Of a stretch of 64,000 bases of DNA, positions 641-63,164 are shown piece by piece. Under the pieces are notes generated by a model. It saw nothing but the letters and a program-made list of their open reading frames with translations. It did no database searches and was not told the origin of the DNA. Each line of letters starts with the position of its first letter. Within the stretch, counting starts at the first letter, position 1. The stretch is from Shouchella patagoniensis (GTDB lineage Bacteria; Bacillota; Bacilli; Bacillales; Bacillaceae_D), in contig NZ_KV917377.1 in the NCBI RefSeq assembly GCF_002019705.1, positions 246,565-310,564 on the forward strand, in the 5' to 3' direction. A program made the position numbers and the translations under genes.

Positions 641-763
641 GTGAAAGATGTTCTAAACAAATTAATAAATGAGTTTGAATATAAGTTGGGAAGAAAGCTG
701 ACTTTTACTGAAAAAGAATTTTTAGCTACCATCGCTAGTAAAATCAACACTCCTTCGGATTAA
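641..763 (+). CDS. Small protein of unknown function (40 aa)
   Basis: A GTG start at 641 sits 11 bp after a strong AAAGGGGGA ribosome site, which is why I prefer it to the upstream in-frame start at 578. The product (VKDVLNKLINEFEYKLGRK...) is amphipathic and helical, with no signal peptide or membrane segment. Its last 14 codons overlap, tail to tail, the Sda-like gene on the other strand (722-865). A TATAAT box at 568-573 could serve its promoter. No function can be assigned. Confidence 0.45.
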   Translation: MKDVLNKLINEFEYKLGRKLTFTEKEFLATIASKINTPSD

Positions 764-865
764 TTCATTTTTAAAAATGTCTGTAAAATCTTCTTGTAGT
801 TTGAGTTTCTTTGCTTCTACAAATGCTTCCTGCATTAATTTTGTAGGAATTTCATATATCGTCAT
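722..865 (-). CDS. Sda-like sporulation antikinase microprotein, copy 1 (47 aa)
   Basis: This ORF is too short for usual ORF calling. From about residue 10 it follows the helical-hairpin pattern of Sda: L-x-x-E-A-F-x-x-A, then L-x-x-D-F-x-x-I-x-x-x-E-L-x-R-R-S. As I recall the family, B. subtilis Sda reads LIESYFKA...NLNRDFIELIENEIKRRS, so the key Leu, Asp-Phe and Arg-Arg-Ser positions fit. Sda binds the dimerisation domain of sporulation histidine kinases such as KinA and blocks entry into sporulation when replication is disturbed. The weak point is the absence of a convincing ribosome site before the ATG at 865. It also overlaps the tail of the 641-763 gene. Confidence 0.5.
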   Translation of the reverse strand: MTIYEIPTKLMQEAFVEAKKLKLQEDFTDIFKNELIRRSVDFTSDGS

Positions 866-967
866 AAGGCATCCGTTAAAGTGGAATTACAAGTTTTTTT
901 TACAAGTGCATTTGCAGTAAATCAAATAAAAAGCCCCTCTTAAAAGCCAGGCTGTATTAGATTATCC

Positions 968-995
968 TTTTAACGTTTTTGCGTAAACGTTAAAA
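968..995. repeat. Perfect 11-bp inverted repeat with 6-bp spacer
   Basis: TTTTAACGTTT at 968-978 is matched by AAACGTTAAAA at 985-995 around a TTGCGT centre. There is no T-run after it, so a terminator is unlikely. It could be an operator or a promoter-proximal hairpin. It stands in a roughly 320-bp stretch (866-1189) with no gene I can support. Confidence 0.45.
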
Positions 996-1043
996 ATTAC
1001 GTGTAGATTAAAGGTAAAAGCGCAATAAGATTAAACAGCGCGG

Positions 1044-1067
1044 CCGTTCTTAGGGACGGTTTTTTTG
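1044..1067 (+). terminator. Rho-independent terminator-like hairpin
   Basis: A 6-bp stem (CCGTTC/GGACGG with one G-U pair) is followed directly by seven T residues. No gene ends just upstream on this strand, so it may end an unannotated short transcript from the 870-1040 stretch. Confidence 0.5.
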
Positions 1068-1189
1068 AATGAAGGAAAAACTTTATAACAATGTAAAGAG
1101 GTCACTAATTTAACACTAGGTAAACATACAATCAAATTTTTTATTGTGGCATTTAATATTAAAAAGAAGGGAGAGGGGAGAAAAAAGTA

Positions 1190-1480
1190 ATGTGTAGTGT
1201 TCGATATAAAAAGTGCTGTGTGTGTCACAGTAATATACAGTATTTTGAGCGGTCCCGTCAAAACCTTCCAACCTTGCCTATACCAAGCCCTCCAGCCGAA
1301 AGATTTCCTTTAAGAGAACTGCTGATCTCATTAATTGGGGATACTATAGAGGTCTTTACACCTTTCGGAATTTTAGTAGGAACGTTAGAAGCTGTTCAAG
1401 AAGACTATATTATACTAGTAGATGAAACTAATTCGCAGAATCTTGTTCGTTTGGCTAAGATTGAAAGTGTGCTCATATAG
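1190..1480 (+). CDS. DUF2642-like (spore coat associated) protein
   Basis: ATG follows a GAAGGGAGAGGGGAG ribosome site. The first 40 residues are Cys- and Pro-rich (CCVCHS; PTLPIPSPP). The rest (about residues 42-96) resembles the DUF2642 / Lsm-like beta domain: LRELLISLIGDTIEVFTPFG, then GTLEAVQEDYIILV and a final LVRLAKIESV. Proteins of this kind in Bacillus are often spore-coat or forespore-associated, but the reaction or partner is not known. The family call is by pattern only. A hairpin with a T-run at about 1559-1588 lies downstream. Confidence 0.55.
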   Translation: MCSVRYKKCCVCHSNIQYFERSRQNLPTLPIPSPPAERFPLRELLISLIGDTIEVFTPFGILVGTLEAVQEDYIILVDETNSQNLVRLAKIESVLI

Positions 1481-1558
1481 CAAATAATGGAGGTTACCGA
1501 GTAGTAAAAGCTATAGTTATACCCGTATCGGGATCTAGCAAAAACCTTTCTTAATGAC

Positions 1559-1588
1559 AAAAAGCGCCCCTGCACGGGCACTTTTTTC
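1559..1588 (+). terminator. Terminator-like hairpin with T-run
   Basis: AGCGCCC pairs with GGGCACT (one mismatch) across a CTGCAC loop, followed by six T residues. It could end transcription of the 1190-1480 gene and, read on the other strand, of the small gene at 1612-1782. Confidence 0.5.
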
Positions 1589-1611
1589 ATTTCTAACACA
1601 ACACATTATTG

Positions 1612-1782
1612 TTATTTCTCCTCCGAAAGCTTGTCCCGTCTTTCTAAGGTGAAATTTTCCAACTCTTGTAAGTCTTCTACTGTCGCTTGCTTCTTAACAA
1701 AGTTTCTAGCAGTTGATCGGTTTCTAAGGTACCGGGCTCCAGCGACGCCTGCCAGTAAAACGATTATCTTGTCTACATCCAC
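1612..1782 (-). CDS. Small N-terminally hydrophobic protein (56 aa)
   Basis: This short ORF has one of the best ribosome sites in the region (AAAGGAGGAGATAAC, then GTG at 1782). The product starts MDVDKIIVLLAGVAGARYL, a short hydrophobic helix, and continues as a basic then acidic helical tail (NFVKKQATVEDLQELENFTLERRDKLSEEK). It looks like a small membrane-associated protein with a cytosolic coiled helix. I do not recognise a family. It is convergent with the 1190-1480 gene. Confidence 0.6.
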   Translation of the reverse strand: MDVDKIIVLLAGVAGARYLRNRSTARNFVKKQATVEDLQELENFTLERRDKLSEEK

Positions 1783-1959
1783 TCGTTATCTCCTCCTTTC
1801 TATACTCTAACCACACTATCGATAGTATGGTTAGTCAACACTTTTTGTAATATTGATCTAAAGTAATTTAAGGGTTATATTTTTACAATTATAATAAGGA
1901 AGACTAACGGAAAAAATGAGCCGTCTATCAGGCACCCGGAACAAAAGATATGGTAAGAT

Positions 1960-2155
1960 ACATTAAAGTATAATTAAATATATATTAGGATTTAGAACCC
2001 CATAAAATCGGGGTTCCGCATCGCTTGCTAGATACAAATAAATACATTAGAATACAGGTAATTACTAGCGTGCTGTAGGAAGCATTTATGGCTGTCTTGC
2101 GCATGGACGATAACTAAGTCTGAAAAAGCCGCCTGCGATGTAGGCAGGCTTTTTT
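1960..2155 (+). ncRNA. Possible small non-coding RNA upstream of hemW
   Basis: The 390-bp stretch 1790-2178 has no ORF I can support. It contains a TATAAT box at 1969-1974, a perfect 7-bp hairpin at 1995-2016 (GAACCCC/GGGGTTC) and ends at a strong terminator (2123-2155) 24 bp before hemW. A promoter, a stable hairpin and a terminator without an ORF fit a short untranslated transcript. No good -35 box was found and no known RNA family was recognised, so this is tentative. Confidence 0.3.
2123..2155 (+). terminator. Rho-independent terminator upstream of hemW
   Basis: GCCTGC (2131-2136) pairs with GCAGGC (2144-2149) inside flanking A and T runs, with six T residues after the stem. It separates whatever is transcribed upstream from hemW. 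Confidence 0.75.
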
Positions 2156-2178
2156 CATGTGAGAAGGAGAGTAAATCT

Positions 2179-3333
2179 ATGGGCCAATCAATTTATGTAC
2201 ACATCCCTTTTTGCGAACATATATGTCATTACTGCGACTTTAATAAGGTATTTTTAGAAAATCAGCCTGTTGAAGCATATATTGATGCGTTAATTAAGGA
2301 GATGGAGCATTCAGAACAGTCTCGAAAAAAGGTTCCGATTCAGACCATATATATAGGTGGTGGAACACCTACGGCATTATCTGCACAACAACTTGATCGA
2401 CTAATGACCGCAATGCATACCGTTTTTCAGTTAGATGCCTTACTTGAATGGTCGGTTGAAGTGAATCCAGATAGTGCGGATGAAAACAAACTAAGTGTCT
2501 TGAAGAAACATGGAGTAACCCGTTTGAGTTTAGGTGTTCAAACATTTACCCAACCGTTATTAGATGAAATTGGGCGAACACACTCGCCAGAGAGTGTGCA
2601 ACAGGCAATTGTCACAGCGAGAAATCAAGGATTTACGAACTTGTCCGTTGACTTAATGTTAGGCCTTCCTAACCAAACAGTCGAGCATTTTTCCGATTCC
2701 TTAGATAAAGCCTTAGCATTAGGAGTAGAACATATTTCAGCTTATATGTTGAAAGTTGAAAAGCAAACCGTGTTTTACAATCGTTATAAAAAAGGGAAAC
2801 TACGCTTACCACCAGAAGAAGCGGATGTAGCAATGTATGATTTATTGCGATTAAAAACATCACAAGCTGGATTGTATCAATATGAAATTAGTAACTTTGG
2901 GAAAATGGGATATGAGAGTAAGCATAATCTTGTCTATTGGAAAAACGAGGAATATGCAGGTTTTGGAGCTGGAGCATCCGGTTACGAGCGGCAGGTGAGG
3001 TATCAAAATATTAATCCAATCCAAAAGTATATTGATGCAGTTATGGATAAGGGTCAAGCGAGAATGAGGGAACATCAGGTCTCTAAAGTGGAATGGCTTG
3101 AAGAAGCGGTTTTCTTAGGATTACGCATTCGTGATGGGATTGATAAAGAATCATTTAAGGCACATTATGGGTATGATATAAACGAATTATTCGCAGACGA
3201 AATTCGCATAGGGATACAAAAAGGTTTGATAGAGGAAACAACAAGTCATTTAAAACTAACGGAAGAAGGGTTGCTCCTAGGAAATGAGGCGTTTGAATTA
3301 TTTGTTGCCGTTTTAGATGAAGAAGCCTTTTAA
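2179..3333 (+). CDS. hemW: Radical SAM heme chaperone HemW
   Basis: The protein (384 aa) is a HemN-like radical SAM enzyme. Cys12, Cys16 and Cys19 in CEHICHYC bind the 4Fe-4S cluster that activates S-adenosylmethionine. The next position of interest is Phe21 rather than the fourth Cys (CxC) typical of true coproporphyrinogen dehydrogenase HemN, which points to HemW, a heme-binding and heme-transfer protein. GGGTPTAL (SAM-binding glycine motif) and the C-terminal HemN domain are present. The ATG follows GAGAAGGAGAG. Its place just before hrcA is standard in Bacillaceae, but lepA, the usual upstream neighbour, is absent here. Confidence 0.93.
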   Translation: MGQSIYVHIPFCEHICHYCDFNKVFLENQPVEAYIDALIKEMEHSEQSRKKVPIQTIYIGGGTPTALSAQQLDRLMTAMHTVFQLDALLEWSVEVNPDSADENKLSVLKKHGVTRLSLGVQTFTQPLLDEIGRTHSPESVQQAIVTARNQGFTNLSVDLMLGLPNQTVEHFSDSLDKALALGVEHISAYMLKVEKQTVFYNRYKKGKLRLPPEEADVAMYDLLRLKTSQAGLYQYEISNFGKMGYESKHNLVYWKNEEYAGFGAGASGYERQVRYQNINPIQKYIDAVMDKGQARMREHQVSKVEWLEEAVFLGLRIRDGIDKESFKAHYGYDINELFADEIRIGIQKGLIEETTSHLKLTEEGLLLGNEAFELFVAVLDEEAF

Positions 3334-3398
3334 CTATGGAAAAAATGAGCTTTTAGCAATTGACAACAGAGCCTCTTTTTGATAGTGTAACAATAGTA

Positions 3399-3425
3399 TT
3401 AGCACTCGCTTGCTTAGAGTGCTAA
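3399..3425 (+). promoter_or_regulatory. CIRCE operator (HrcA binding site)
   Basis: TTAGCACTC at 3399-3407 and GAGTGCTAA at 3417-3425 are separated by exactly 9 bp, a perfect match to the CIRCE consensus. HrcA binds this DNA inverted repeat to repress the dnaK operon until heat shock. It lies 16 bp before the hrcA start, so the repressor controls its own operon. Confidence 0.97.
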
Positions 3426-3441
3426 CAGGGAGGTGCTTGGA

Positions 3442-4470
3442 ATGTTAACGGAAAGACAACTTATGATTTTACATGCAATCGTTGACGATTATGTTCGTTC
3501 CGCAGAGCCTGTTGGTTCACGAAGCATCTCAAAACGGAATGATATTCCGTATAGTCCAGCAACAATACGAAATGAGATGGCAGACCTTGAAGAACTTGGT
3601 TTTCTGGAAAAGCCGCATAGTTCAGCTGGAAGAGTGCCTTCACAGCATGGATATCGCTATTATGTAGACCATTTATTATCTCCACACCGATTGACTGTTG
3701 CAGAACGCGCAGGGCTTTCCCGACTAACCTCTGCAAGTTTGGAAGCAATGGAAGAAGTCTTTCAAGAATCAGCACGGATATTGTCAGAGATGACTAGTTA
3801 CGTTTCTGTTGTTCTTGGACCTGAATCGTTGAATGAAAAACTGAAAAATATTCAAATCATCCCAATGGACAGCCGAAAGGCCGTTGTTATTGTTGTGAGC
3901 GATACAGGTCATGTTGAGAATCACCTTGTGCAAATTGGAGAAGGTGTAACGTCTACTGATTTAGAGCGAACCGTTAATCTTTTAAATGAGCGATTAATCG
4001 GAACACCTCTTTCCCAGTTGCAAAAGAAAATCAATATAGAGTTAGGACAACTATTCCGAGATCATATTGACAATTATCAACAAGTGCTCGGTATGTTGGA
4101 GCGGACGATGGTCTCTGGTGTGAGTGAAAAATTGTTTTTCTCGGGAAAAACGAATTTAATGGAGCAACCTGAATTTCAGGATGTTGGCAAAATGCGTTTA
4201 GTTTATAAAACGTTAGAAGAAGAGAATCTATTGCAGCAGTGGTTCCGAACACAACAGGCAGACGGATTACAAGTCTCAATTGGTCAAGAAAACCAATTAG
4301 AAGCATTTGAAGCTTGCAGCATTATTACTGCTTCTTATGCGATTAATGGTCGTCATGTTGGAACACTTGGAGTGATTGGGCCAACAAGGATGGAGTATAG
4401 GCGAATGATTAAAGTGGTTGATTCGCTTTCAAAAGATTTGTCTAAACTGTTAACAGGATTTAATGAGTGA
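3442..4470 (+). CDS. hrcA: Heat-inducible transcription repressor HrcA
   Basis: HrcA (342 aa) represses class I heat-shock genes through CIRCE. The N-terminal winged helix (residues 1-75) contains SRSISKRNDIPYSPATIRNEMADLE and the following LEKPHSSAGRVPS. The C-terminal GAF-like dimerisation domain ends with GTLGVIGPTRMEYRRMI. I chose the ATG at 3442, which lies 7 bp after GGGAGGTG and gives the usual MLTERQ start; the GTG at 3433 overlaps the ribosome site. It is the first gene of hrcA-grpE-dnaK(-dnaJ). Confidence 0.96.
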   Translation: MLTERQLMILHAIVDDYVRSAEPVGSRSISKRNDIPYSPATIRNEMADLEELGFLEKPHSSAGRVPSQHGYRYYVDHLLSPHRLTVAERAGLSRLTSASLEAMEEVFQESARILSEMTSYVSVVLGPESLNEKLKNIQIIPMDSRKAVVIVVSDTGHVENHLVQIGEGVTSTDLERTVNLLNERLIGTPLSQLQKKINIELGQLFRDHIDNYQQVLGMLERTMVSGVSEKLFFSGKTNLMEQPEFQDVGKMRLVYKTLEEENLLQQWFRTQQADGLQVSIGQENQLEAFEACSIITASYAINGRHVGTLGVIGPTRMEYRRMIKVVDSLSKDLSKLLTGFNE

Positions 4471-4477
4471 TGGTATG

Positions 4478-4498
4478 CGCAGCAGCTAATCTGCTGCT
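4478..4498 (+). other. Hairpin in the hrcA-grpE gap
   Basis: The 169-bp gap between hrcA and grpE contains a perfect 7-bp stem (GCAGCAG/CTGCTGC) with a 5-base loop soon after the hrcA stop. There is no T-run. It may stabilise or process the polycistronic message; a partial attenuator is also possible. I saw no second CIRCE element. Confidence 0.5.
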
Positions 4499-4639
4499 CT
4501 ACATAAAGCATGAGTGTTAGGCAATGTAATTGCATGACACATGCACCAATCGAAGTATTTGCAGACTAGCTAGGTTATTTGCTAAGCTGTCCAAGAATCA
4601 AGTCTGTAAATACGGAAACATACTAGGAGGTGAACAATC

Positions 4640-5218
4640 ATGGCTGAAGAAAAGAAAGATGAAACAATTTTGGAAAATGAATCACTTGAGCAGGAAATGC
4701 CTGAAGCTGAAAAAGAAGTTGAGCAAAAAGAAGCTTCTAATGAAGAAACGATTGAGGCGAATGATGAAGAGTCAGAGGTTCACCCTCTTGAAATAGAGTT
4801 GGCAGAAACAAAAGATCGCCTTGCTCGTGTTCGAGCGGATTATGAAAACTTCCGTCGCCGTACAAATGAAGAAAAAGAAGCACAAGCTAAATATCGTGCA
4901 CAAGGATTTATTGAAAAGCTTTTGCCTGCACTTGATAATTTTGATCGGGCGTTAACTGTTGAACCACAACACGACGAAGCAAAACAGCTTCTTCAAGGAA
5001 TGGAAATGGTTAACCGTCAAATTCAAGATGCGTTAAAAAATGAAGGTGTTGAGGTTATTCCGACAAAAGGGGAAATGTTTGATCCACATCTTCACCAAGC
5101 AGTGATGCAAGTAGAAGAAGAAGGATATGACAGCAACCAGATTGTCGAGGAGCTTCAAAAAGGATATCAATTAAAAGACCGAGTCATTCGGCATTCTATG
5201 GTAAAAGTGAATTCATAG
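4640..5218 (+). CDS. grpE: Nucleotide exchange factor GrpE
   Basis: GrpE (192 aa) releases ADP from DnaK. The first 55 residues are highly acidic and disordered, followed by a long helix ([25 protein letters not shown] begins it) that forms the dimer coil. The C-terminal beta wing includes [13 protein letters not shown] and [12 protein letters not shown], the conserved DnaK-contact region. ATG follows ACTAGGAGGTGAAC. The stop is 19 bp before dnaK. Confidence 0.95.
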
Positions 5219-5237
5219 TTTTGGGAGGAAAAAAGAA

Positions 5238-7073
5238 ATGAGTAAAATTATTGGAATTGACTTAGGTACAACAAATTCATGTGTAGCAGTTATGGAAGGC
5301 GGAGAAGCAACTGTAATTCCAAATCCAGAAGGCAACCGTACGACCCCATCTGTAGTTGCATTTAAAGATGGCGAGCGTCTTGTTGGAGAAGTGGCAAAAC
5401 GTCAAGCTATTACGAACCCAAACACGGTTATTTCTATTAAACGTCACATGGGAACAGACTACAAAGTAGAAGTAGATGGAAAGAGTTATTCTCCACAAGA
5501 ACTTTCAGCGATTATTTTACAAAAGCTTAAGTCCGATGCAGAAGCATATTTAGGTGAAAAGGTAACGAAGGCAGTTATTACAGTACCTGCTTACTTTAAT
5601 GACTCACAACGCCAAGCGACAAAAGATGCTGGAAAAATTGCTGGTCTGGAAGTAGATCGTATCGTTAACGAACCAACTGCAGCAGCGCTTGCATATGGGC
5701 TTGAGAAAGAAGAAGATCAAACAATTCTTGTCTATGACTTAGGAGGCGGTACATTTGACGTATCAATCCTTGAGCTTGGTGATGGTTTCTTCGAAGTAAA
5801 AGCAACTTCTGGTGATAACAAGCTAGGTGGCGATGACTTTGATGATGTTATCATGGACTATCTTGTAGCAGAATTTAAAAAAGAAAACGGCATTGATTTA
5901 GCACAAGATAAAATGGCAATGCAACGTTTGAAAGACGCTGCTGAAAAAGCGAAAAAAGATCTTTCTGGTGTCACACAAACACAAATTTCATTACCGTTTA
6001 TCACTGCAGATTCTTCAGGACCAAAGCACCTCGAAATCAACTTGACTCGTGCGAAATTCGATGAGATTTCTTCTGAACTTGTTGAACGTACATTAGCACC
6101 GACACGTCGGGCATTATCAGATGCAGGAATGTCAGCTTCTGAAATTGATAAAGTTGTTCTTGTAGGTGGATCAACGCGTATTCCTGCAGTACAGGAAGCG
6201 ATTAAACGTTTAACTGGAAAAGACTCACACAAAGGAGTTAACCCAGATGAAGTTGTTGCTCTAGGTGCAGCAATTCAAGCAGGTGTATTGACTGGAGATG
6301 TTAAAGACGTTGTTCTTCTTGACGTTACACCACTTTCACTTGGTATTGAAACAATGGGCGGAGTCTTCACTAAGCTAATTGACCGTAATACAACAATTCC
6401 AACATCAAAATCACAAACATTCTCTACAGCGGCTGATAACCAACCTTCTGTAGATATCCATGTGCTTCAAGGTGAACGCGAAATGGCAGCTGACAACAAA
6501 ACGCTTGGTCGTTTCCAACTTAGTGATATCCCACCAGCTCCACGTGGAGTCCCACAAATTGAAGTAACATTTGATTTAGATGCAAACGGAATTGTAAATG
6601 TAAAAGCAAAAGATCTTGGAACAAACAAAGAACAATCAATTACAATTACTTCATCATCTGGTCTTTCTGATGAAGAAATTGAAAAAATGGTTCATGATGC
6701 AGAAGAAAATGCTGAAGCAGATAAAAAACGTCGTGAGCAAGTAGAGCTTCGTAATGAAGCAGATCAACTCGTTTTCTCAACTGAAAAAACACTTAAAGAT
6801 TTAGGTGATAATGTTGAGCAAGAAGAAAAAGATAAAGCAGAAGCAGCAAAAGACAAGCTAAAAACTGCACTTGAATCGGATAACGAGGAAGAAATTAAAA
6901 CAGCAAAAGACGAGCTTCAAGAAATCGTCACAGCTTTGACAACAAAAATGTATGAGCAAGCAGCGCAAGCGGCCCAGCAGCAACAAGAAGCTGGTGGCGA
7001 AGGTGCAGAGCAACAAGATGAGAATGTTGTTGATGCGGACTATGAAGAAGTAAATGACGACGAAAAGAAATAA
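5238..7073 (+). CDS. dnaK: Molecular chaperone DnaK (Hsp70)
   Basis: DnaK (611 aa, normal for Firmicutes) is an ATP-driven chaperone. The ATPase domain shows the phosphate-1 loop [10 protein letters not shown] (residues 6-15), [17 protein letters not shown] and [10 protein letters not shown]. The linker [19 protein letters not shown] leads to the substrate-binding domain. The C-terminal tail is Gln/Glu/Ala-rich. Firmicutes lack the roughly 24-residue insert of Gram-negative DnaK, and none is seen here. ATG follows GGGAGGAAAAAAG. A terminator-like hairpin follows the stop, so dnaJ may be expressed at a lower level. Confidence 0.98.
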
Positions 7074-7085
7074 GAGCGGATTGGA

Positions 7086-7123
7086 GAAAAGTCAAAGTCA
7101 GCGTCATGGCTTTGGCTTTTTTC
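7086..7123 (+). terminator. Terminator-like hairpin between dnaK and dnaJ
   Basis: AAAAGTCAAAG (7087-7097) pairs with CTTTGGCTTTT (7110-7120) with one G-U pair, and T residues follow. It should end or reduce read-through from dnaK into dnaJ. Confidence 0.75.
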
Positions 7124-7232
7124 TCTGAAATAGGTGTCTCCTATTGCAAGGAGCGCTTACCTGGTGATAAGATGAACGTTATGTGAGAAAACGTGAGGCG
7201 GCAAAAAGTCGCATTCAGTCGGGAGGAAAAAC

Positions 7233-8357: not shown

Positions 8358-8382
8358 TCAAGTTAAGACTACGTATATATAT

Positions 8383-8420
8383 GGTGAAGGAAGCTTGTTT
8401 TAAGCATTCCTTCACCTATT
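8383..8420 (+). terminator. Terminator-like hairpin between dnaJ and prmA
   Basis: A perfect 10-bp stem, GGTGAAGGAA (8383-8392) with TTCCTTCACC (8407-8416), is followed by a short TATTTTA run. The weak T-run suggests partial read-through into prmA. Confidence 0.6.
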
Positions 8421-8464
8421 TTACGGAAAAAATGATTTATAGGATTAATAAGGGAGCTAATACA

Positions 8465-9406: not shown

Positions 9407-9417
9407 AGAGGTGTGTG

Positions 9418-43165: not shown

Positions 43166-43329
43166 GTTTAATTATAAATAATAAGGGAAATTTGTAAGTA
43201 ACTGTCGAATGTTAAAAAAGCAGTAGGTAGTAAAGTGAAAGTTAGCAAGTTAAAAGATATGAGGATAGATTTTTAATAAGAAATAAAAAGAAAGGTGTAA
43301 AAAAGGAAATTAATCGAAATGTGTAATAA

Positions 43330-43461
43330 TTAATTAGAAATATACATTCCACGTCTCTCTATTTCCTCTTTTAACAGTTCAATAAAGTCTGCTTCTAAAT
43401 TATTTTGGATAGCTTTATTACAAGCCTCAATAAGTAGATCGTCTTTTAGCTCACTTAACAT
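43330..43461 (-). CDS. Sda-like sporulation antikinase microprotein, copy 2 (43 aa)
   Basis: The ATG at 43461 follows TAGGAGTGATCTATA. The product begins MLSELKDDLLIEACNKAIQ and continues NNLEADFIELLKEEIERRG. It shares with B. subtilis Sda the LxxELL.E opening, the N-L-x-x-D-F-I-E-L core and the E-I-x-R-R helix end, all key for the antiparallel hairpin that binds sporulation kinases. This is the closest to Sda of the three copies here. It lies at the end of the accessory island, next to the integrase fragment. Confidence 0.8.
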   Translation of the reverse strand: MLSELKDDLLIEACNKAIQNNLEADFIELLKEEIERRGMYISN

Positions 43462-43568
43462 TATAGATCACTCCTAAATACAGATAAGGTTACTAACAAA
43501 TCGGTTCCCGGAATTGTTTTGTAATAAACCACTTTTTTTATATTTTTTCAATTATTTTTCCAATAATG

Positions 43569-44072
43569 TCATTTCAGTGTATTCGAGCGCGGCTTTAATG
43601 CTTCCTGGAATAATAGCTTCGCTTTTACCCCTTCTTTTTGTTCTAAATGCCATTTCCCTAAATGCTGGTAAACAAAATCAAGTGCATAGTTATTGTTTTT
43701 GTTAGCTAACTCTAATGCAGTCACAAAACAAGTATATGCTTGAGCCTTTCCAGCATATTTATAAGCTTCACCTAAGCGGATATAAGAAAGTTGTTCTTTC
43801 TTCTTATCGTCTAATTCAATAGATAATTTAAGGGCTTTTTGTAAGTGAACGATTGCTTTAGGTGATTGGTAAATTCGGAAGAGCGTTCCAATGTGAGTAT
43901 GTAACTCGTAACCTTCAATCGAATTTTCAAGTGAAGCCAATTGTTGATTTGCTTTTTCTATCCATTGAAGCAATAGCCGTGGATTGGTACTAAAGTCTCT
44001 TAAGCAACAATTCGTGTTTGATTGAACTGTTTCATAACAAGTGTCGAGTAATTGTCGTAATTTTTCATCCAT
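43569..44072 (-). CDS. TPR-repeat protein
   Basis: The protein (167 aa) has about three tetratricopeptide repeats (HTHIGTLFRIYQSPKAIVHLQKALKLSIEL; SYIRLGEAYKYAGKAQAYTCFVTALELANK; DFVYQHLGKWHLEQKEGVKAKLLFQEALK). TPR arrays bind peptides or proteins. It lacks the Rap N-terminal bundle. ATG 44072 follows GGAGGGTGAA; the GTG at 44081 is less well spaced. It lies head to head with topB. Role unknown. Confidence 0.8.
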   Translation of the reverse strand: MDEKLRQLLDTCYETVQSNTNCCLRDFSTNPRLLLQWIEKANQQLASLENSIEGYELHTHIGTLFRIYQSPKAIVHLQKALKLSIELDDKKKEQLSYIRLGEAYKYAGKAQAYTCFVTALELANKNNNYALDFVYQHLGKWHLEQKEGVKAKLLFQEALKPRSNTLK

Positions 44073-44224
44073 CCATTTCACCCTCCATTCTTATGATTTA
44101 CAGGCAAAATGATAAATAAATGATGGTGATAATCATAAATAATAGTAAGAGGAAATCGTACTGTCATTTCTTCTAATATGCTATACTGAAGCCAAAAAGT
44201 TCTTAATAAGTGAGGAGTATATTG

Positions 44225-54819: not shown

Positions 54820-54831
54820 TAGTCGAATTGA

Positions 54832-54858
54832 AGAGGCTAGCTTGCTGGCCTCTTTTCT
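54832..54858 (+). terminator. Rho-independent terminator of odhAB
   Basis: AAGAGGC pairs with GCCTCTT over TAGCTTGCTG, followed by a T-rich run. Confidence 0.85.
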
Positions 54859-54902
54859 TGTACAATAAAAGAGACTTATGTTGTAAGAAGGAGGGAATAC
54901 GT

Positions 54903-55103
54903 ATGATCCATCAAACATGGACAGATGCGCCAACAATTCGAACATTGACATGCGTGCATACGGATGCTAAAAAATATGTGGTTAATGAGGTATTAACTGT
55001 TGGTAAACAATACCCACTTAAAAATGAAACAGACGAATTTTACTTTGTTATCGATAATACCGGCAAGATTGGCGGTTTTTACAAAGAGTACTTCGAAGGA
55101 TAG
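54903..55103 (+). CDS. DUF6501-like small protein (66 aa)
   Basis: The product (MIHQTWTDAPTIRTLTCVHTDAKKYVVN..., ending FYFVIDNTGKIGGFYKEYFEG) is a beta-rich small protein that resembles a conserved Bacillaceae family I recall as DUF6501. The role is unknown. ATG 54903 follows AAGGAGGGAATAC; the in-frame extension upstream passes through the odhAB terminator and is not used. Confidence 0.75.
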   Translation: MIHQTWTDAPTIRTLTCVHTDAKKYVVNEVLTVGKQYPLKNETDEFYFVIDNTGKIGGFYKEYFEG

Positions 55104-55139
55104 AAAAACCGAGTGCTACATTAGCACTCGGTTTTTTTG
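55104..55139. terminator. Bidirectional terminator
   Basis: AAAAACCGAGTGCTA pairs perfectly with TAGCACTCGGTTTTT over a 3-base loop. It serves the small gene and the converging ABC-F gene. Confidence 0.93.
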
Positions 55140-55142
55140 ACG

Positions 55143-56741
<1,599 letters not shown>

Positions 56742-56940
56742 CTACAATAAGCAATTAAGGAATGACATTGTTTGCTTTTGTTGTTTTTTATCCATATCTA
56801 GTTTACCGTCTAAGGCCACCAGTGTAAACGAAAACGGGACATTTTATACGAAAACGTTAAAATTTACGTCCACGGAAAGGTGTTAAAAGAAAAAAGGTGA
56901 ATAAAATCCTGTAAGAGAAGGTGAGAAGGAGGCATAAACC

Positions 56941-57644
56941 ATGAATTTAAATTATTCCATTTATCGATCAAATGAGTGGAAAGAAGTAAACGAATTTATA
57001 AAAGTGCTTAATAAAAAGTTATCTCGTCCCTGCGATGAATGGACAGTCCTGATTAAGAATTCTAATAAGTTAATAGCGATCTTCCAATTTTGGACGTATT
57101 CTTTCTATAAAAAGTGGTTTACGCTGACATCATAGGGCAGCAAAATGCACCTACACAGTTAAAGGAAATGGTGGCAATGACAAAACAAATAGTAGGGATA
57201 AAAAAACCACTACAAATACTGGTTCATGAAGATAACGAAAATTGCTTATCACAAGCAGGGTTTGCATTAGTCCGAACGACTTATTTTGCAGCGTGGACTT
57301 TAAAAAACATAAGGGAGGCAAGTGAAAATCAATGTTATCGTCAAGTAAATAACTTAACGACTGAAGAGAAGATTCAATATATAAAATTAGTTAAAGGCAA
57401 TTACGAACATAGTCATCTTATGAATCCGATTCGAAATCTTGGCTTACAGGAGTGGGAAAAACTTATATTTGCAGAGGATCTGCTAGATGAAGAGACACTT
57501 CTTATATTTAATCAAAGAATACGTGCCTATATTCAATGTCATTCCAGCGCTCAACCAACTAAAGTAGAAATTGGTTGGGTCGGACAAGATTTGAGTGAGG
57601 ACTGCGTTTCCATATACCAATTGATGCGTAAAAAAGACTTTTAG
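56941..57644 (+). pseudogene. GNAT-like acetyltransferase, frameshifted
   Basis: The first frame (56941-57135; MNLNYSIYRSNEWKEVNEF...) stops soon after an AAAAA run near 57106; the second frame (57114-57644) carries on with no plausible ribosome site (ADIIGQQNAPTQLKEMVAMTKQ..., LVHEDNENCLSQAGFALVRTTY, then a long C-terminal part to 57644). Adding one A to the run would join them into one protein of about 234 aa. The first half resembles a GNAT N-terminal fold (NKLIAIFQFW, then the A-site strands). AGAAGGAGGCATAAACC gives a strong site for the ATG at 56941. It may be a real mutation, slippage or a read error. Confidence 0.6.
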
Positions 57645-57701
57645 CTGCTTTTCCGTTTTATGTAACAGAAACCTATTATACATATCAAGAAAGGTTTTAA
57701 A

Positions 57702-57735
57702 AAAAGCAAATCCAATTGGATTTGCTTTACCTTTT
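57702..57735. terminator. Bidirectional terminator
   Basis: AAAAGCAAATCC pairs with GGATTTGCTTT over AATT; T-rich on the right and A-rich on the left, between the converging acetyltransferase and reductase genes. Confidence 0.85.
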
Positions 57736-57736
57736 T

Positions 57737-58561
57737 TTAACGTGCATGCATGTCACTCGGATTGGATCCACGGCGTTGATTGCGATCCAAACGGTTGATA
57801 GCAGCCATATTTTCTTCTGTAAGCTCAAAATCAAAGACATTAAAATTTTCTTCAATTCGTGATGGTGTTACTGATTTTGGAATAACGATTGTGTTGTTTT
57901 GTAAGTGCCAACGCAATACAACTTGTGCAGCCGTTTTTCCATGCTCATTTGCAATTTGTACAACTGTTGTATCACTAAGTACTTCCCCGCCCTGATCAAG
58001 TGGACTCCAAGCTTCTATATAAATATCATGCTTCGCACAAAAATCTTTTAATTCGTTTTGCGCTAAATAAGGATGGCATTCAACTTGGTTTAGTACGGGT
58101 GGAATATCACATTCATTAAGAAGACGTTCAAGATGCTCGATATGGAAATTGCAAACTCCAATCGCTCGAACTTTACCGTCTTTATATAATTTCTCCAACG
58201 CCTTATATGTATCTATGTACTGATCAAAATCAGGTGTTGGCCAGTGAATTAAATATAAATCCAAGTATTCTAAACCAAGGCGCTCCATGCTTGCGTCAAA
58301 TGCTTTTAAAGTAGCATCATAGCCTTGATCCGCATTCCATACTTTGGTGGTAATAAATAAGTTATTTCGATCAATATTTCCATCTTTGATTGCTTTTCCA
58401 ACACCGGCTTCATTTTTATAAATCATGGCAGTGTCGATTGATGTATAACCTGTTTCTAGGGCTTTTGCAACTGCTGGCGTCGCTTCTTCATCTTTTACTT
58501 GCCAAACACCAAAGCCAAGCTGTGGCATAGTAATGCCGTTATTTAATGTGACAGTTTTCAT
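57737..58561 (-). CDS. Aldo/keto reductase
   Basis: The protein (274 aa) is an NADPH-dependent AKR. The catalytic Asp and Tyr are in SIDTAMIYKNEAGVG, the Lys in ITTKVWN and the His in LYLIHWPTP. The NADPH-binding C-terminal IPKSVTPSRIEENFNVFDFEL is intact. It reduces aldehydes such as glyoxal or methylglyoxal, judged by its likeness to YvgN/YtbE-type enzymes. ATG follows TAGGAGTGATCTGTAG. Confidence 0.93.
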   Translation of the reverse strand: MKTVTLNNGITMPQLGFGVWQVKDEEATPAVAKALETGYTSIDTAMIYKNEAGVGKAIKDGNIDRNNLFITTKVWNADQGYDATLKAFDASMERLGLEYLDLYLIHWPTPDFDQYIDTYKALEKLYKDGKVRAIGVCNFHIEHLERLLNECDIPPVLNQVECHPYLAQNELKDFCAKHDIYIEAWSPLDQGGEVLSDTTVVQIANEHGKTAAQVVLRWHLQNNTIVIPKSVTPSRIEENFNVFDFELTEENMAAINRLDRNQRRGSNPSDMHAR

Positions 58562-58711
58562 CTACAGATCACTCCTAAAATAGATTTGACTATTTTTTCA
58601 GTATACAACAGTCAGATTATAAGGGAAAGAAACAAGTCTTGAAAGATGAATGATAGGTTTTAAAAAAGTTGAAATCGTTTATAGAAAGGATAAAGGAAAT
58701 GGAGGTATTGG

Positions 58712-59806
58712 ATGAATAGATGGATACTATTAGCAGGTGGAATGTTTATGCTGTCGGCTTGTACACAGGAGAACGAAAGTACTACCAACAATAGTGAAGA
58801 CGACGGAATGACACAAGAATCGGGTCCAGATACTACTATGGATATGACAACTTTAGCTGATCAACTTAAAGCACCATGGGCAATTGTAAAAGGAGAGGAA
58901 GTGTTTTTTGTTCCAAGACGTGATGGCACCATCTATGTTATTAATGAAAATGGTACCGTCAGTGAACAACCAGTCTACTTGGAAGAAGATGTAGAACAAG
59001 AAGCGGAGTCAGGTTTGTTAGGCATGGTTTTACATCCGGAGTTTGAAGAGAATCAAACCGCATTTCTTTATCATTCATATGAGAGTAACGAGGGTATTGA
59101 GAATCGGATTATTGAGACTAGGTGGGACGAAGAAAACGAAGAGTGGAATGAGGTAGATGTCCTTTTGGATGGCATTCCTGGCGCGGGGATACATAATGGA
59201 GGGCGCTTAGCAATTGGACCGGATCAATTGCTTTATGCAACGACAGGCGATGCAGATCAAGAAGAACTTGCGCAAGATGTTGACAACCTTGCAGGAAGTA
59301 TTTTGAGAATGGAGCTTGACGGAGCAATTCCTTCTGACAATCCATTTGAAAATTCTGTTGTCTATTCATATGGTCATCGAAACCCACAAGGATTGGCGTG
59401 GGTAGAAGATGGAACAATGTTTAGTTCGGAGCATGGTCCGGTAGGTCACGATGAAATTAACGTAATTGAACCTGGAAGCAATTATGGATGGCCAGAAATA
59501 ACTGGAGACGAAACGAGGGATGGAATGATGCCCCCGCTTATCCATTCTGGGGAAGATACGTGGGCACCTTCAGGATTAACGGCAGATAAGGATCAGTTAT
59601 ATGTGGCAGGGTTACGTGGGGAAGCGATCTATCAATTTGCCCCTGATGATGAGAATTTAGTTGAATTGATTGATGGGGTTGGTCGTATTCGTGATGTTCA
59701 TGTAGAAGATGGTGTTCTATATTTCATTACGAATAACACTGATGGACGAGGAACTCCGAGTGAAGAAGATGATCAGTTAATAAAATGGGAATTGAATAAA
59801 TTATGA
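58712..59806 (+). CDS. PQQ-dependent sugar dehydrogenase-like lipoprotein
   Basis: The protein (364 aa) has a lipoprotein signal (lipobox LSAC) and an acidic linker, then a six-blade beta-propeller of the glucose/sorbosone dehydrogenase type: LKAPWAIVKGEEVFFVPRRDGTIYV, RNPQGLAWVEDG, EHGPVGHDEINVIEPGSNYGWPE and APSGLTADK. It would oxidise sugars at the membrane surface if PQQ or a similar cofactor is present; no PQQ genes are in the window. ATG follows ATGGAGGTATTGG. Divergent from the reductase gene. Confidence 0.88.
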   Translation: MNRWILLAGGMFMLSACTQENESTTNNSEDDGMTQESGPDTTMDMTTLADQLKAPWAIVKGEEVFFVPRRDGTIYVINENGTVSEQPVYLEEDVEQEAESGLLGMVLHPEFEENQTAFLYHSYESNEGIENRIIETRWDEENEEWNEVDVLLDGIPGAGIHNGGRLAIGPDQLLYATTGDADQEELAQDVDNLAGSILRMELDGAIPSDNPFENSVVYSYGHRNPQGLAWVEDGTMFSSEHGPVGHDEINVIEPGSNYGWPEITGDETRDGMMPPLIHSGEDTWAPSGLTADKDQLYVAGLRGEAIYQFAPDDENLVELIDGVGRIRDVHVEDGVLYFITNNTDGRGTPSEEDDQLIKWELNKL

Positions 59807-59841
59807 GAGAAGGCTAAGTATCTTTATTTAGCCTTCTTTTA
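59807..59841 (+). terminator. Rho-independent terminator
   Basis: AGAAGGCTAA (59809-59818) pairs with TTAGCCTTCT (59828-59837), followed by T residues. Confidence 0.88.
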
Positions 59842-59926
59842 ATGGAGTTTATACCAATTCATTGTTATCTGTTTTATACTTAATAAGATAAAGTTGATTG
59901 AATGAAGTGAGGAAGTGGTTCAAAAA

Positions 59927-62041
59927 ATGATCCAACAAAAAATGGAACAAGCAATACAGACGTTGGAGACGTTTTATGGGTATTCGTCTTTCCGTAAAGG
60001 TCAAGAGCAAATTATTCGCTCTTTACTGACTAACAACGATGCACTAGTTGTTATGCCTACAGGTGGAGGAAAGTCATTATGCTATCAAATCCCTGCTCAA
60101 GTTTTAGGTGGAACAACACTTGTTATTTCTCCCTTAATAGCATTAATGAAAGACCAAGTCGATGCTGTAAATCAAATTGGAATACGAGCAACATTCGTGA
60201 ATAGTGCAATTTCAAAAGCAGAAGAACATGCTAGATTGACTCAGGTTGCATCAGGGGAAATAACGCTTCTCTATGTCGCACCTGAACGCCTCTATGATCC
60301 TGCTTTTCAAAACGCCTTAAAACAGACACCAATTTCTTTAATTGCGATCGACGAAGCACATTGTATGTCGCAGTGGGGTCATGATTTCCGCCCTAGTTAT
60401 TTGCGAATAGCTGAGTGGATCAATGGATTGCCTTATAGACCACCTGTAGTGGCGTTAACAGCTACTGCAACACCTGAAGTGGCAGAGGATATTTGTTTAC
60501 GTTTAGGAATTGATGTAAACAACCAGCATTATACAGGTTTTAAACGGGAGAATTTAACGTTTCGATTGTTGCGAGGTGAAAAAAAAGACCGTTTTATTAT
60601 GCAATACGTTGAAGCGAAAAAAGGGCTGTCAGGTATTGTTTATGCATCAACTCGTAAAGAAGCTGAACAGATTTACCGCCAATTAAGGAAGCAACAGACA
60701 AATACAGTCCTCTATCACGGTGGTTTAACGGAAATTGAACGGACCGAAGCCCAGGAAGCGTTTGTCCATGATGAGGCAGATGTTATGGTTGCAACAAATG
60801 CCTTTGGTATGGGGATAAATAAGTCGAATGTGCGCTTTGTTATTCATGCAAACTTGCCGGGTACGATTGAAGCATATTATCAAGAAGCGGGTCGTGCTGG
60901 TCGAGATGGGGAAGAAAGTGAATGTGTCCTTTTATACCAAGCTCAAGATATTCAAACACAACGTTTTTTCATTGAACAATCAAATGGAGAACTGGAAAAA
61001 AAAGAGAATGACTTTGAAAAGCTACAATTTATGAATCGATATGCTCATACAAACCAATGTTTGGAACAATTTATTTTAGAGTATTTCGGAGGTTCAGAGA
61101 GTGAGCCTTGTGGCAAATGTAGCAATTGTACAAAGGAGGGGGAACAAGAGGACGTAACGAGAGAAGCTCAAATGGTCCTCTCTTGTGTTGTACGAATGAA
61201 GGAACGGTATGGAAAGTCAATCGTTGCTCAAGTATTGACTGGTTCAAAAAATAAAAAAATAGAACAGTTTCATTTAAATAAACTACCTACGTATGGTCTA
61301 ATGAATAAGAGAACGGCAAAAGATGTACAAGCCTTTATTGACTTTTTGCTTGCCGAGGGATTCATCGGTTTAACACCAACGTCATATCCAACATTAAAAG
61401 TGTTAGAAAAGGGTGCGGCTGTTTTAAAAGGCGATGCAAAAGTGAATCAATACAAAGAACATATTTCGAGTCAACAAAACAACATCAATGATCCTTTGTT
61501 TGAGCAGTTGCGATTAAAGCGAAAAGAGCTAGCCGAAAAACAAGGGGTCCCACCATATTTAATTTTTTCTGATAAGACTTTAAAAGAGATGGCTACGGTC
61601 GTTCCAAAAACAAATGAAACATTAGCAACCATCTCTGGAGTTGGAGCACATAAGTTGGAGTTATATGGTGAGGCGTTTTTAGATTTATTACGCTCCACAG
61701 ACATACAGGTAAGTACAGTCATCTCTACCCAACAAAAAGGGAAGGCGAAGCTCAATGTGGACGAAGCAATTCAACTATATAATGAGCACAAAAGCCCATC
61801 AGAAATCGCCGAAGAACTTGGTTTCTCTGAACAAACGATTATTAAACATTTGATTGAAGCGGAGAAAGATGGTCGAGCCTCTGACGTTTTAAAACTTGTA
61901 ACAGAAGAAAAACAAATAAGGATAAAAGAGGCTATAAATGAACATGGAACTGAGTTTTTAAAGCCAATCAAAGAAAGAGTTGGTGAAACGATCTCTTATA
62001 CGGAGATTAAAATTGTGATGGAACTTGGGGCGAACGTGTAG
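59927..62041 (+). CDS. recQ: ATP-dependent DNA helicase RecQ
   Basis: The protein (704 aa) is a RecQ helicase. The helicase core has Walker A MPTGGGKSLCYQ, DEAH in IDEAHCMSQWGHDFRPSY, ALTATA and the arginine-finger motif QEAGRAGRDG. The RecQ zinc-binding domain follows (CLEQFILEYFG..CGKCSNC), then the RQC winged helix, an HRDC domain (about 515-590) and a C-terminal helix-turn-helix (YNEHKSPSEIAEELGFSEQTI). The last domain makes it longer than typical RecQ. ATG 59927 was chosen because the GTG at 59915 overlaps the GAGGAAG ribosome site. Confidence 0.95.
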   Translation: MIQQKMEQAIQTLETFYGYSSFRKGQEQIIRSLLTNNDALVVMPTGGGKSLCYQIPAQVLGGTTLVISPLIALMKDQVDAVNQIGIRATFVNSAISKAEEHARLTQVASGEITLLYVAPERLYDPAFQNALKQTPISLIAIDEAHCMSQWGHDFRPSYLRIAEWINGLPYRPPVVALTATATPEVAEDICLRLGIDVNNQHYTGFKRENLTFRLLRGEKKDRFIMQYVEAKKGLSGIVYASTRKEAEQIYRQLRKQQTNTVLYHGGLTEIERTEAQEAFVHDEADVMVATNAFGMGINKSNVRFVIHANLPGTIEAYYQEAGRAGRDGEESECVLLYQAQDIQTQRFFIEQSNGELEKKENDFEKLQFMNRYAHTNQCLEQFILEYFGGSESEPCGKCSNCTKEGEQEDVTREAQMVLSCVVRMKERYGKSIVAQVLTGSKNKKIEQFHLNKLPTYGLMNKRTAKDVQAFIDFLLAEGFIGLTPTSYPTLKVLEKGAAVLKGDAKVNQYKEHISSQQNNINDPLFEQLRLKRKELAEKQGVPPYLIFSDKTLKEMATVVPKTNETLATISGVGAHKLELYGEAFLDLLRSTDIQVSTVISTQQKGKAKLNVDEAIQLYNEHKSPSEIAEELGFSEQTIIKHLIEAEKDGRASDVLKLVTEEKQIRIKEAINEHGTEFLKPIKERVGETISYTEIKIVMELGANV

Positions 62042-62118
62042 GCGGCTTGTTTGCAATCGAATAATTGATTATGGTACAACCATACGTAGTGACTACATCG
62101 TGAAAGGGTCGATTAAAA

Positions 62119-62451
62119 GTGGGACAATTAAAAGAGCTAACAACAGTTGAAGAATGGGAGCAATTTCTTATTGGTTCGAATGAAACAGTTTCATTATTAT
62201 TTAAACATAGTACACAGTGCCCGATTAGTGCAGAAGCATATGAGGAATTTCAAAGCTTTGCGAACGAGAATGAGCAATTTCAATTTGGAGTAGTAAAAGT
62301 CATTGAGTCTCGTCCAGTGTCTAACCAAATAGCAGAAAAGCTAGAAGTTGTTCACAAGTCACCACAACTATTCGTCCTAGAGGATCAAAAAGTAAAGTGG
62401 ACAGAATCACATTGGAACATAAAACAACAATCAATTCAAGACCATGTATAA
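62119..62451 (+). CDS. brxC: Bacillithiol system redox-active protein BrxC (YtxJ)
   Basis: The protein (110 aa) is a thioredoxin-like YtxJ/DUF2847 protein: LFKHSTQCPISAEAYEEF has the monothiol CPIS motif in place of CxxC. It acts with bacillithiol in reducing protein mixed disulfides, as known for Firmicutes lacking glutathione. GTG start at 62119, with AAAGGGTCG upstream. A terminator follows immediately. Confidence 0.88.
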   Translation: MGQLKELTTVEEWEQFLIGSNETVSLLFKHSTQCPISAEAYEEFQSFANENEQFQFGVVKVIESRPVSNQIAEKLEVVHKSPQLFVLEDQKVKWTESHWNIKQQSIQDHV

Positions 62452-62478
62452 AACGAGCTTTATTGCTCGTTTTTTTTC
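62451..62478. terminator. Terminator of brxC
   Basis: AAACGAGC pairs with GCTCGTTT over TTTATT, then a T-run. It overlaps the stop end of the minus-strand gene at 62460. Confidence 0.9.
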
Positions 62479-62579
62479 TTTGCAGCATGATCTTGTTTCA
62501 TGATGCAATAATACGTAAATAGTAAAAACGCGATCACGAGTAAAGAACAGATTCTTTTAGTCACGGAAAACCAATCCAA
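62460..62579 (-). CDS. Small membrane protein (39 aa)
   Basis: A TTG at 62579 follows a strong AAGGAGTGATTGAT site. The product has one membrane helix (ICSLLVIAFLLFTYYCIM) and a basic, Lys-rich cytosolic tail (KQDHAAKKKNEQ). The brxC terminator overlaps its 3' end. No family recognised. It is divergent from the membrane gene at 62719. Confidence 0.5.
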   Translation of the reverse strand: MDWFSVTKRICSLLVIAFLLFTYYCIMKQDHAAKKKNEQ

Positions 62580-62718
62580 ATCAATCACTCCTTAACTAAA
62601 GTTTAACCAATTCATACCTGTCCATTCACGGAAAAAGCCTGTTTTATAAGATTCAAGACAAACAAACAAGACAAGGTATCGAGTGATGCATACATTGAAA
62701 GTCAAGGAGGTGTTTTTG

Positions 62719-62940
62719 ATGGGTCCGACAGTTTACGCAACCTCTCTCTTTATTTTCAGTTTGTTAGGAATTACGGGAGCTTTTACTGCCATACTCGCAT
62801 TTTCATCTGGCTGGAGTATTTGGGCTGGACTAGCATGGCTTTTTGTTGCGGCACTTTCTGTATTGGCGATCATAGTGACTGATATAGTTCAAAGGGTTTT
62901 TGAGATAGAAGCTCGTTTAGATGAGGAAGAAGAAGAATAA
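62719..62940 (+). CDS. Small membrane protein with two helices (73 aa)
   Basis: The product (MGPTVYATSLFIFSLLGITG...) has two membrane helices (YATSLFIFSLLGITGAFTAIL; AGLAWLFVAALSVLAIIV) and an acidic C-terminus (EARLDEEEEE). ATG 62719 follows CAAGGAGGTGTTTTTG. Function unknown. A terminator comes next. Confidence 0.75.
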   Translation: MGPTVYATSLFIFSLLGITGAFTAILAFSSGWSIWAGLAWLFVAALSVLAIIVTDIVQRVFEIEARLDEEEEE

Positions 62941-62964
62941 AAAGCGACGAAATGTCGCTTTTCT
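62938..62964 (+). terminator. Rho-independent terminator
   Basis: AAAAGCGAC pairs with GTCGCTTTT over GAAAT. Confidence 0.85.
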
Positions 62965-63020
62965 AAAGGAATTGGTAGAGCTAGATAGAATGAATAGGGT
63001 GAATGACTGATGGGAAATAT

Positions 63021-63164
63021 TCAACTGTGTTTATTCTTAATAGGAGTTATCTTCCTTTTTGCAAGTTCCTTTTCTAAAATAGAGATAAAGTCCTTTTCTA
63101 AATTATTTTGACATGCTTTTTTATACGCCTCTAAGAGTACCGAATTGGTTAATTGATTCAGCAT
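63021..63164 (-). CDS. Sda-like sporulation antikinase microprotein, copy 3 (47 aa)
   Basis: An ATG at 63164 follows AAAGGAGAGTCTATAAA. The product opens MLNQLTNSVLLEAYKKACQ and continues NNLEKDFISILEKELAKRK. The pattern L-L-x-E-A-Y-x-x-A, N-L-x-x-D-F-I-x-I/L and E-L-x-x-R matches Sda. It shares the QNNLE-x-DFI core with copy 2, so those two are close paralogs. It probably binds a sporulation histidine kinase, though the target could differ. Confidence 0.75.
   Translation of the reverse strand: MLNQLTNSVLLEAYKKACQNNLEKDFISILEKELAKRKITPIKNKHS

Follow-up and report, generated by a model that had tools for sequence, protein, structure and literature searches.

The stretch of DNA analysed here (the window) comprises 64,000 nucleotides of Shouchella patagoniensis (contig NZ_KV917377.1, positions 246,565 to 310,564) and carries three short open reading frames (ORFs) related to sda, whose product blocks sporulation histidine kinases. 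A first-pass annotation made from the sequence alone had described them as three divergent Sda-type antikinase microproteins, and all three were found where it had placed them, on the minus strand (Table 1). Each scored above the curated cut-off of the Pfam Sda family (PF08970, 22.6 bits), and membership was further backed by the predicted fold of copy 1 and by retained residues; none of the ORFs had a match in NCBIfam. A phmmer search with copy 3 alone retrieved the three solved Sda sequences (E 9e-6 to 3e-5), as did an Sda profile of 31 rows with copy 1 as the first (E 6e-18 to 3e-19). The AlphaFold2 model of copy 1 is a two-helix hairpin (predicted local distance difference test score, pLDDT, 87; helices H8-20 and H25-37), and its top five Foldseek matches in the PDB were all Sda (probability 0.93-1.00, root-mean-square deviation 0.4-3.0), with E-values of just 0.2-0.7. 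The hairpin of copies 2 and 3 is assigned by homology only. Residues L21 and F25 of Sda contact the kinase, and their equivalents are present as L..DF in all three window copies, the sequences varying outside such core residues. That the three ORFs share the Sda fold we regard as virtually certain.

Table 1. Features discussed in the text; positions are those of the window unless a locus is named.
Feature	Position	Strand	Remarks
Sda copy 1, 47 aa, divergent	722..865	-	Pfam 32.4 bits; AlphaFold2 hairpin; S1 clade, support 0.89
Sda copy 2, 43 aa, S2 group	43330..43461	-	Pfam 55.7 bits; Shine-Dalgarno AGGAG
Sda copy 3, 47 aa, S3 group	63021..63164	-	Pfam 50.9 bits; Shine-Dalgarno AAGGAG
Predicted SigB-type promoter of copy 2, GTTTAT-N14-GGGAAC	43504..43529	-	Pattern in 10/10 retrieved S2 orthologs
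Predicted SigB-type promoter of copy 3, GTTTAA-N14-GGGTAC	63207..63232	-	Pattern in 6/6 retrieved S3 orthologs
Second predicted SigB-type promoter, GTTTAA-N13-GGGAAA, facing copy 2	43166..43190	+	Where relatives have the partner promoter
Partner microprotein, 40 aa, GTG start	641..763	+	Shine-Dalgarno AGGGGG; heads alignment A2
Promoter-like stretch of copy 1	887..926	-	TTGATT 925-920; CTTGTAA 906-900 and 893-887
Canonical sda leader, Shine-Dalgarno and hairpin	L102:1873-1909 (G000)	-	Same place in other canonical sda

The family is larger than the window suggests. In the source genome (G000, 4.65 Mb; G001 and onwards denote other genomes, and L-numbers the loci retrieved from them) 11 profile matches were obtained at E<=10, of which eight lie above the cut-off, two are weak (19.4 bits, and 18.4 bits with an internal stop) and one, inside a 373-aa frame, is taken as chance; three copies per 64 kb was hence a real count that understated the genome. 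The canonical sda gene, linked to yqeG/yqeH, is located 18 kb left of the window (G000:C1:228749, locus L102), and none of the three window copies adjoins yqeG/yqeH, so that none is a canonical ortholog by this measure. Across 101 genomes of the order (cut-off E<=0.001), Sda was absent from one, single in 45, present in at least two copies in 55 and in at least four in 11, with a maximum of 15 in a genome that is 7% contaminated. The picture of one Sda per genome from which the first-pass annotation had started is therefore true of the B. subtilis control but is not the rule of the order. A profile search of 40 genomes, G000 included, gave 149 matches at E<=0.05 (1-10 per genome), and 111 distinct Sda genes were extracted from the loci retrieved, those of G012, for example, being left out. 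By gene neighbourhood, 31 of them were classed as canonical (adjoining yqeG/yqeH) and 80 as paralogues; the L21 equivalent is kept in 75 of these 80, and the F25 equivalent likewise in 75. A C-terminal -[ST]S, a possible ClpXP signal, was counted from the sequence lists in 27/31 canonical proteins versus 4/80 paralogues, and the window copies 1-3 end in -GS, -SN and -HS. Unusual arrangements were also seen: two Sda genes tail to tail within 300 bp (G022, L099), two in tandem within 300 bp, one of them just at the cut-off (G030, L116), and an Sda domain in frame with a long, possibly glycosidase-like tail in a 437-aa open frame (G017, L091:2492-3772), which may be a fusion or an accident of frame.

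Copy 2 belongs to an ortholog group designated S2, copy 3 to S3, and copy 1 to S1, which in this genome also includes L103 and L104; a further group, S4, lies outside the window (L106 in G000). A FastTree phylogeny recovered S1 (5/5 members, support 0.89), S3 (6/6, 0.78), S4 (9/9, 0.83) and the canonical genes (31/31, 0.79) as clades, while the S2 branch (0.74) held its nine members plus G004_L060, G002_L051 and G003_L057. The closest relative of copy 1 in the tree is L104, a paralogue in its own genome. Copies 2 and 3 keep their neighbourhoods throughout the genus, the former among genes read as topoisomerase III and queuosine genes, the latter beside an unclassified 161-aa gene and a BrxC/YtxJ gene. 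Ratios of non-synonymous to synonymous substitution rates (dN/dS), each a single pairwise estimate over 43-48 codons, were 0.08, 0.17 and 0.27 for three S2 ortholog pairs, 0.12, 0.19 and 0.27 for three S3 pairs, 0.06 and 0.20 for S4, 0.14 for canonical sda and 0.23 for copy 1 against L104. As judged from these coding sequences, purifying selection was shown for the groups of copy 2 and copy 3. Upstream of copy 2, a 170-aa ORF (window 43569-44081, minus strand) gave TPR-like matches below the Pfam cut-off.

The control regions set these groups apart. The pattern GTTTNN-N12-15-GGGWAH, sought in the 130 bp upstream with 20 dinucleotide shuffles as control, preceded 19/80 paralogues (shuffles: mean 0.6, maximum 2) versus 0/31 canonical genes. 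All 16 retrieved S2 and S3 orthologs carried it at -62 to -80, the ten S2 genes being the nine members of the group and the truncated G004_L060, and the other three cases were G003_L057 (-59), G013_L088 (-64) and G017_L093 (-82). Among the 57 other genes of the window it precedes one. The Bacillales SigB consensus is given as KTTTW-N12-17-GGGWAW in PMC9847131, a paper whose main text does not contain the word 'sda'. A SigB model scored above its cut-off in 11 of the 13 genomes of the genus, the exceptions being G007, whose 2.6 Mb contain only one Sda, and G006, in which the gene is broken across two frames. In G000 the surroundings of sigB read as rsbU-rsbV-rsbW-sigB-rsbX, and across the genus genomes examined the rsbV promoter follows GTTTAR-N14-(T/G)GGTAW (GTTTAG-N14-TGGTAT in G000, GTTTAA-N14-GGGTAT in G004 and G009-G011), except in G002 (GGGTAG). 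Control of copies 2 and 3 by SigB is, on these motifs, a prediction that we consider very probable.

The remaining groups differ in their upstream motifs. DnaA activates sda, and ClpXP degrades Sda (PMC4923064). DnaA boxes, for which the first-pass annotation had proposed a search, were not found at the window copies, the nearest 160 bp of each being free of an exact box. An exact box was present upstream of 7/31 canonical genes (shuffled 0.2) versus 1/80 paralogues, the 130-bp limit missing boxes farther up, several of which are visible at about -130 to -150; GAACNNNNGTTC was found upstream of 12/31 canonical genes (shuffled 0.05) versus 0/80 paralogues. In S4 the candidate regulator is NrdR. 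The sequence ACACWATATNTWGTGT, which we take to be the NrdR-box consensus, occurs at one mismatch or fewer in just two places in G000, at S4 and before a presumably MazG-like gene; at two mismatches a reversed-pattern control outnumbers the pattern. When the box period was left free between 17 and 45 bp, the best choice was 31-32 bp in 8/9 S4 orthologs and in 11/11 nrdI upstreams tested, of 14 ribonucleotide reductase loci retrieved (L170, L173 and L176 being left out). At periods of 31-33 bp, 102 other Sda upstreams scored 17-24 versus 25-28 for S4, and nrdR is present in 13/13 genus genomes. The paired 16-bp boxes of S4, like those of the genus nrdI upstreams, are spaced by 15-16 bp as reported for NrdR (PMC12051234), whose regulon targets the ribonucleotide reductase operon, whereas S4 is an antikinase gene. 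NrdR control of S4 is predicted with good, if slightly lesser, confidence than that of SigB over copies 2 and 3. The suggestion that several antikinases tie different signals to sporulation finds its support in promoter motifs only: copies 2 and 3 have those of SigB, S4 those of NrdR and canonical sda those of DnaA.

Further motifs were noted at these loci. At L136 (G000:C1:3295530-3295545), the site before the MazG-like gene is a perfect NrdR-type box, one box only. Near the -35 position, four S1 Sda genes (L103, L104, L069 and L072) have TTTGATTTTCCCAA in common, which at one mismatch or fewer has 14 sites in the genome versus three for the reversed pattern, 9/14 lying inside other genes. 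In 27/31 canonical sda genes the Shine-Dalgarno sequence GGAGGTG is placed 18-30 nt from the start codon, mostly with a hairpin between the two; 21/27 of these leaders have a fold more stable than that of 95% of their mononucleotide shuffles (mean z -3.2), whereas a control stretch upstream gave z -0.23 and 1/27. The 5' arms of the hairpins come in 22 versions, pointing to compensatory change, and the leader looks like a hairpin-bridged ribosome site or a translational switch.

Taken as a whole, the reading we favor, at a probability of about 0.62, is that these genes encode paralogous Sda antikinases, one fold re-promoted in such a way that distinct stresses could each restrain a small common set of kinases. 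Through repeated duplication of a single short helical hairpin, an inhibitor of sporulation histidine kinases, several copies would have come under separate regulators, and a range of conditions could then slow the phosphorelay by way of one type of inhibitor. Each paralogue would bind the dimerisation domain of KinA/KinB-like kinases as Sda does, and kinase inhibition by the paralogues is, taken alone, likely. S4 would be derepressed when deoxyadenosine triphosphate (dATP) falls, and loss of the tail would make the paralogues more stable. Copy 1 is a lineage-specific member whose gene overlaps, tail to tail, that of another microprotein predicted to be helical. Copies 2 and 3 would be made under general stress and would delay sporulation, much as SigB acts via Spo0E in B. 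subtilis, where SigB-driven Spo0E is likewise a SigB-dependent brake on the Spo0A phosphorelay (PMC7522486). Spo0E dephosphorylates Spo0A~P, whereas the presumed target of the Sda paralogues is the kinase and their protein is the Sda hairpin.

The microprotein paired with copy 1 is convergent to it, the last 42 bp of each gene overlapping, and heads a family (alignment A2, 24 rows) of 39-55 aa proteins with the pattern LxxEFExKLxRxLxxxExELL. Its AlphaFold2 model is also a two-helix hairpin (pLDDT 89). No credible match to the family was found in Pfam, NCBIfam, PHROGs, PDB sequences or PDB folds. The best hits involved a single member of 24 (Pfam E 7e-4, NCBIfam 0.0035, PHROGs 3e-4) or were weak (PDB E 0.025 by sequence and 0.99 by fold), and a DnaD-like PDB match was set aside as a common helix-turn pattern. 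Profile-profile comparison with hhalign did not identify the partner as an Sda homolog (probability 0.3%, P 0.19). Two partner ortholog pairs gave dN/dS values of 0.13 and 0.22, the comparison of the copy 1 partner with that of L104 being unusable through saturation of synonymous sites. As a separate observation, CTTGTAA, a putative operator sometimes doubled at 12-13 bp, precedes 7/20 partner genes (L103, L072, L104, L108, L069, L049 and L047; shuffled mean 0.33).

Whether the partner belongs with Sda is a close call. That it acts in the same pathway stands at even odds; that it is functionally unlinked, a separate small-protein family found nearby by happenstance, is only somewhat less probable. 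With the copy 1 partner as sole query, 13 genomes yielded 18 matches, ten within 300 bp of an Sda match (one of the ten adjoining the Sda remnant of L010), and the A2 profile gave 102 matches in 27 of the 40 genomes, 28 of which adjoin Sda and 74 lie elsewhere. Chance would place 0.115 of the 149 Sda matches beside a partner (assuming 4.2 Mb per genome), and 28 are so placed, 19 convergent and nine in tandem, all with the partner 3' of Sda. None of 39 canonical genes has a partner; 38 were first classed as canonical, 31 by neighbourhood, four by neighbourhood evidence shown later (G008, G012, G014, G021) and three by score only (G010, G011, G028), and the best Sda match of G029 was added, so that 36/39 are shown by neighbourhood. 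At 50 bits or more, 20/24 partner matches adjoin Sda, a bias that is partly built in because A2 was seeded at Sda loci. Most tandem cases are common to one, apparently ancestral, locus, PatB-like/Sda/partner/YwpF-like/MFS (names that we assume for these neighbours); the partner-linked Sda of G015, which is not classed as canonical, lies in such a locus, and several orphan partners sit at this kind of locus without Sda. The two genes are also lost separately: L108 keeps its partner beside an Sda remnant with an internal stop, and at the facing SigB promoter of copy 2 no partner ORF was seen. Either gene can hence persist alone, which argues against an obligate toxin-antitoxin-like pair. On the other side, S2 partners in G001, G005 and G008 have their own SigB promoters, so that both genes of the pair are of SigB type there, and a facing SigB site 164-180 bp downstream was found at 5/9 S2 loci versus 0/6 S3 and 2/96 other Sda loci, its absence from S3 counting against a link.

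If linked, the partner would be expected to intervene where Sda meets the kinase, most probably by moderating its own Sda. We tentatively extend this to two-gene antikinase modules, tail to tail or in tandem, in which the partner would tune or relieve the Sda brake and each module would answer to its own regulator (SigB, NrdR or others), though this is less likely than not. In S2 both genes would be switched by SigB, at copy 2 the retained facing promoter may now yield antisense RNA against its Sda, and the sporulation decision would be the sum of interchangeable stress inputs on 2-3 kinases. The antikinase KipI and its regulator KipA are much larger proteins than Sda and the partner. The possible resemblance is one of logic, a kinase inhibitor with a modulator encoded next to it (PMC12471899).

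That the paralogues diverged toward different histidine kinases, one antikinase per kinase, is unlikely. In its favor, Sda copies vary outside the core, and in G017 (L095) and G031 (L118) no more than about 2.4 kb separates a paralogue from a histidine kinase gene of cluster c141. However, kinases with the exact motif HE(I/V)RNPLT, a count that variant kinases escape, number 2-3 per genome in the 13 Shouchella genomes against 1-10 Sda matches; the two counts are uncorrelated over 40 genomes (Spearman 0.09, p=0.56), and Sda outnumber such kinases in 20 of the 40. Different kinases as the driver of Sda number, one of two options raised in the first-pass annotation, thus fared poorly, although single Sda-kinase pairs may exist, and the combination of few kinases and no correlation favours many signals acting on few kinases. 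In G002 a partner gene (L260:2988-3128, plus strand) and a histidine kinase gene with HE(I/V)RNPLT at G002:C2:35545 converge, some 110 bp apart.

Quite improbable is the view that the copies are functionless relics or selfish hitch-hikers that drift in and then decay. Decayed copies exist, namely the Sda remnant L010/L108 with its internal stop and the truncated G004_L060; L103 and L105 are weakly constrained, and copy 1, which shares no neighbour gene with any other retrieved Sda locus and for which a scan recognised no Shine-Dalgarno sequence, lies about 460 bp from what had been called an integrase fragment. This segment (window 17-259) does match rve_2/rve_3 core domains, and we read it as a transposase remnant, presumably of IS3 type. 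Against decay stand the dN/dS values of S2, S3 and S4 (0.06-0.27) and neighbourhoods and upstream motifs kept in 6-10 genomes. The earlier idea of mobility keeps some weak support at copy 1, but a mobile-element origin for all copies was rejected for copies 2 and 3 on the grounds of neighbourhood and selection. No Sda was found among 50,697 phage records with two queries, nor any partner on plasmids with two partner queries. Two of ten Sda plasmid matches were inspected: H1, from a Cytobacillus solani plasmid that is circular and 270 kb long, seems to be a genuine plasmid gene and speaks for the relic view, whereas H6, labelled as a B. subtilis plasmid, was rejected as chromosomal-looking because yqeG and yqeH adjoin its sda.

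Several points weigh against repeated re-promotion of a kinase inhibitor. The SigB case rests on position conserved across divergent sequence in orthologs that are not independent of one another; G002_L051, whose protein falls on the S2 branch, has no such pattern upstream; and the window as a whole holds 7 sites versus 3.66 expected (11/100 shuffles reach 7), because of which lone sites mean little. For NrdR, the best box pair of G000's own S4 has a period of 24 bp, not 32, the second ribonucleotide reductase locus of G005 (L173) has no candidate box, and nrdI boxes match less well than those of S4 (22-25 versus 25-28 of 32). Constraint is weak at L103 (dN/dS 0.81), L105 (0.51) and L107 (0.37), and copy 1 lacks a recognised ribosome site of the kind that was confirmed for copies 2 and 3. 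Still, that the SigB-like motifs are chance matches of a short pattern, the paralogues being constitutive or under other regulators, is very improbable in the face of 16/16 S2 and S3 genes, 0/31 canonical genes and 1/57 other window genes.

Compared with Sda of B. subtilis and Geobacillus stearothermophilus (1pv0, 3fyr, 3d36), the paralogues described here displayed the following features: (i) the same length, hairpin (in the model of copy 1), L21/F25 pair and profile match; (ii) neither yqeG nor yqeH alongside, almost no close DnaA boxes and mostly no -[ST]S tail; and (iii) SigB- or NrdR-type control regions and several copies per genome. A survey of open-access titles and abstracts, with subscription papers mostly outside it, found none on several Sda per genome, on Sda linked to SigB or NrdR, or on the partner. 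Copies on plasmids are already annotated as 'sporulation histidine kinase inhibitor Sda', so that part of the expansion is visible in databases. In the literature consulted Sda is a single replication-linked checkpoint; here the inhibitor appears to have been re-promoted several times, general stress and perhaps deoxynucleoside triphosphate supply being linked to sporulation through copies of a protein and not through one complex promoter. The family of small proteins linked to Sda would be an undescribed one with a clear first hypothesis, and the whole offers a direct and testable idea of the way in which species may come to differ in the wiring of their decision to sporulate.

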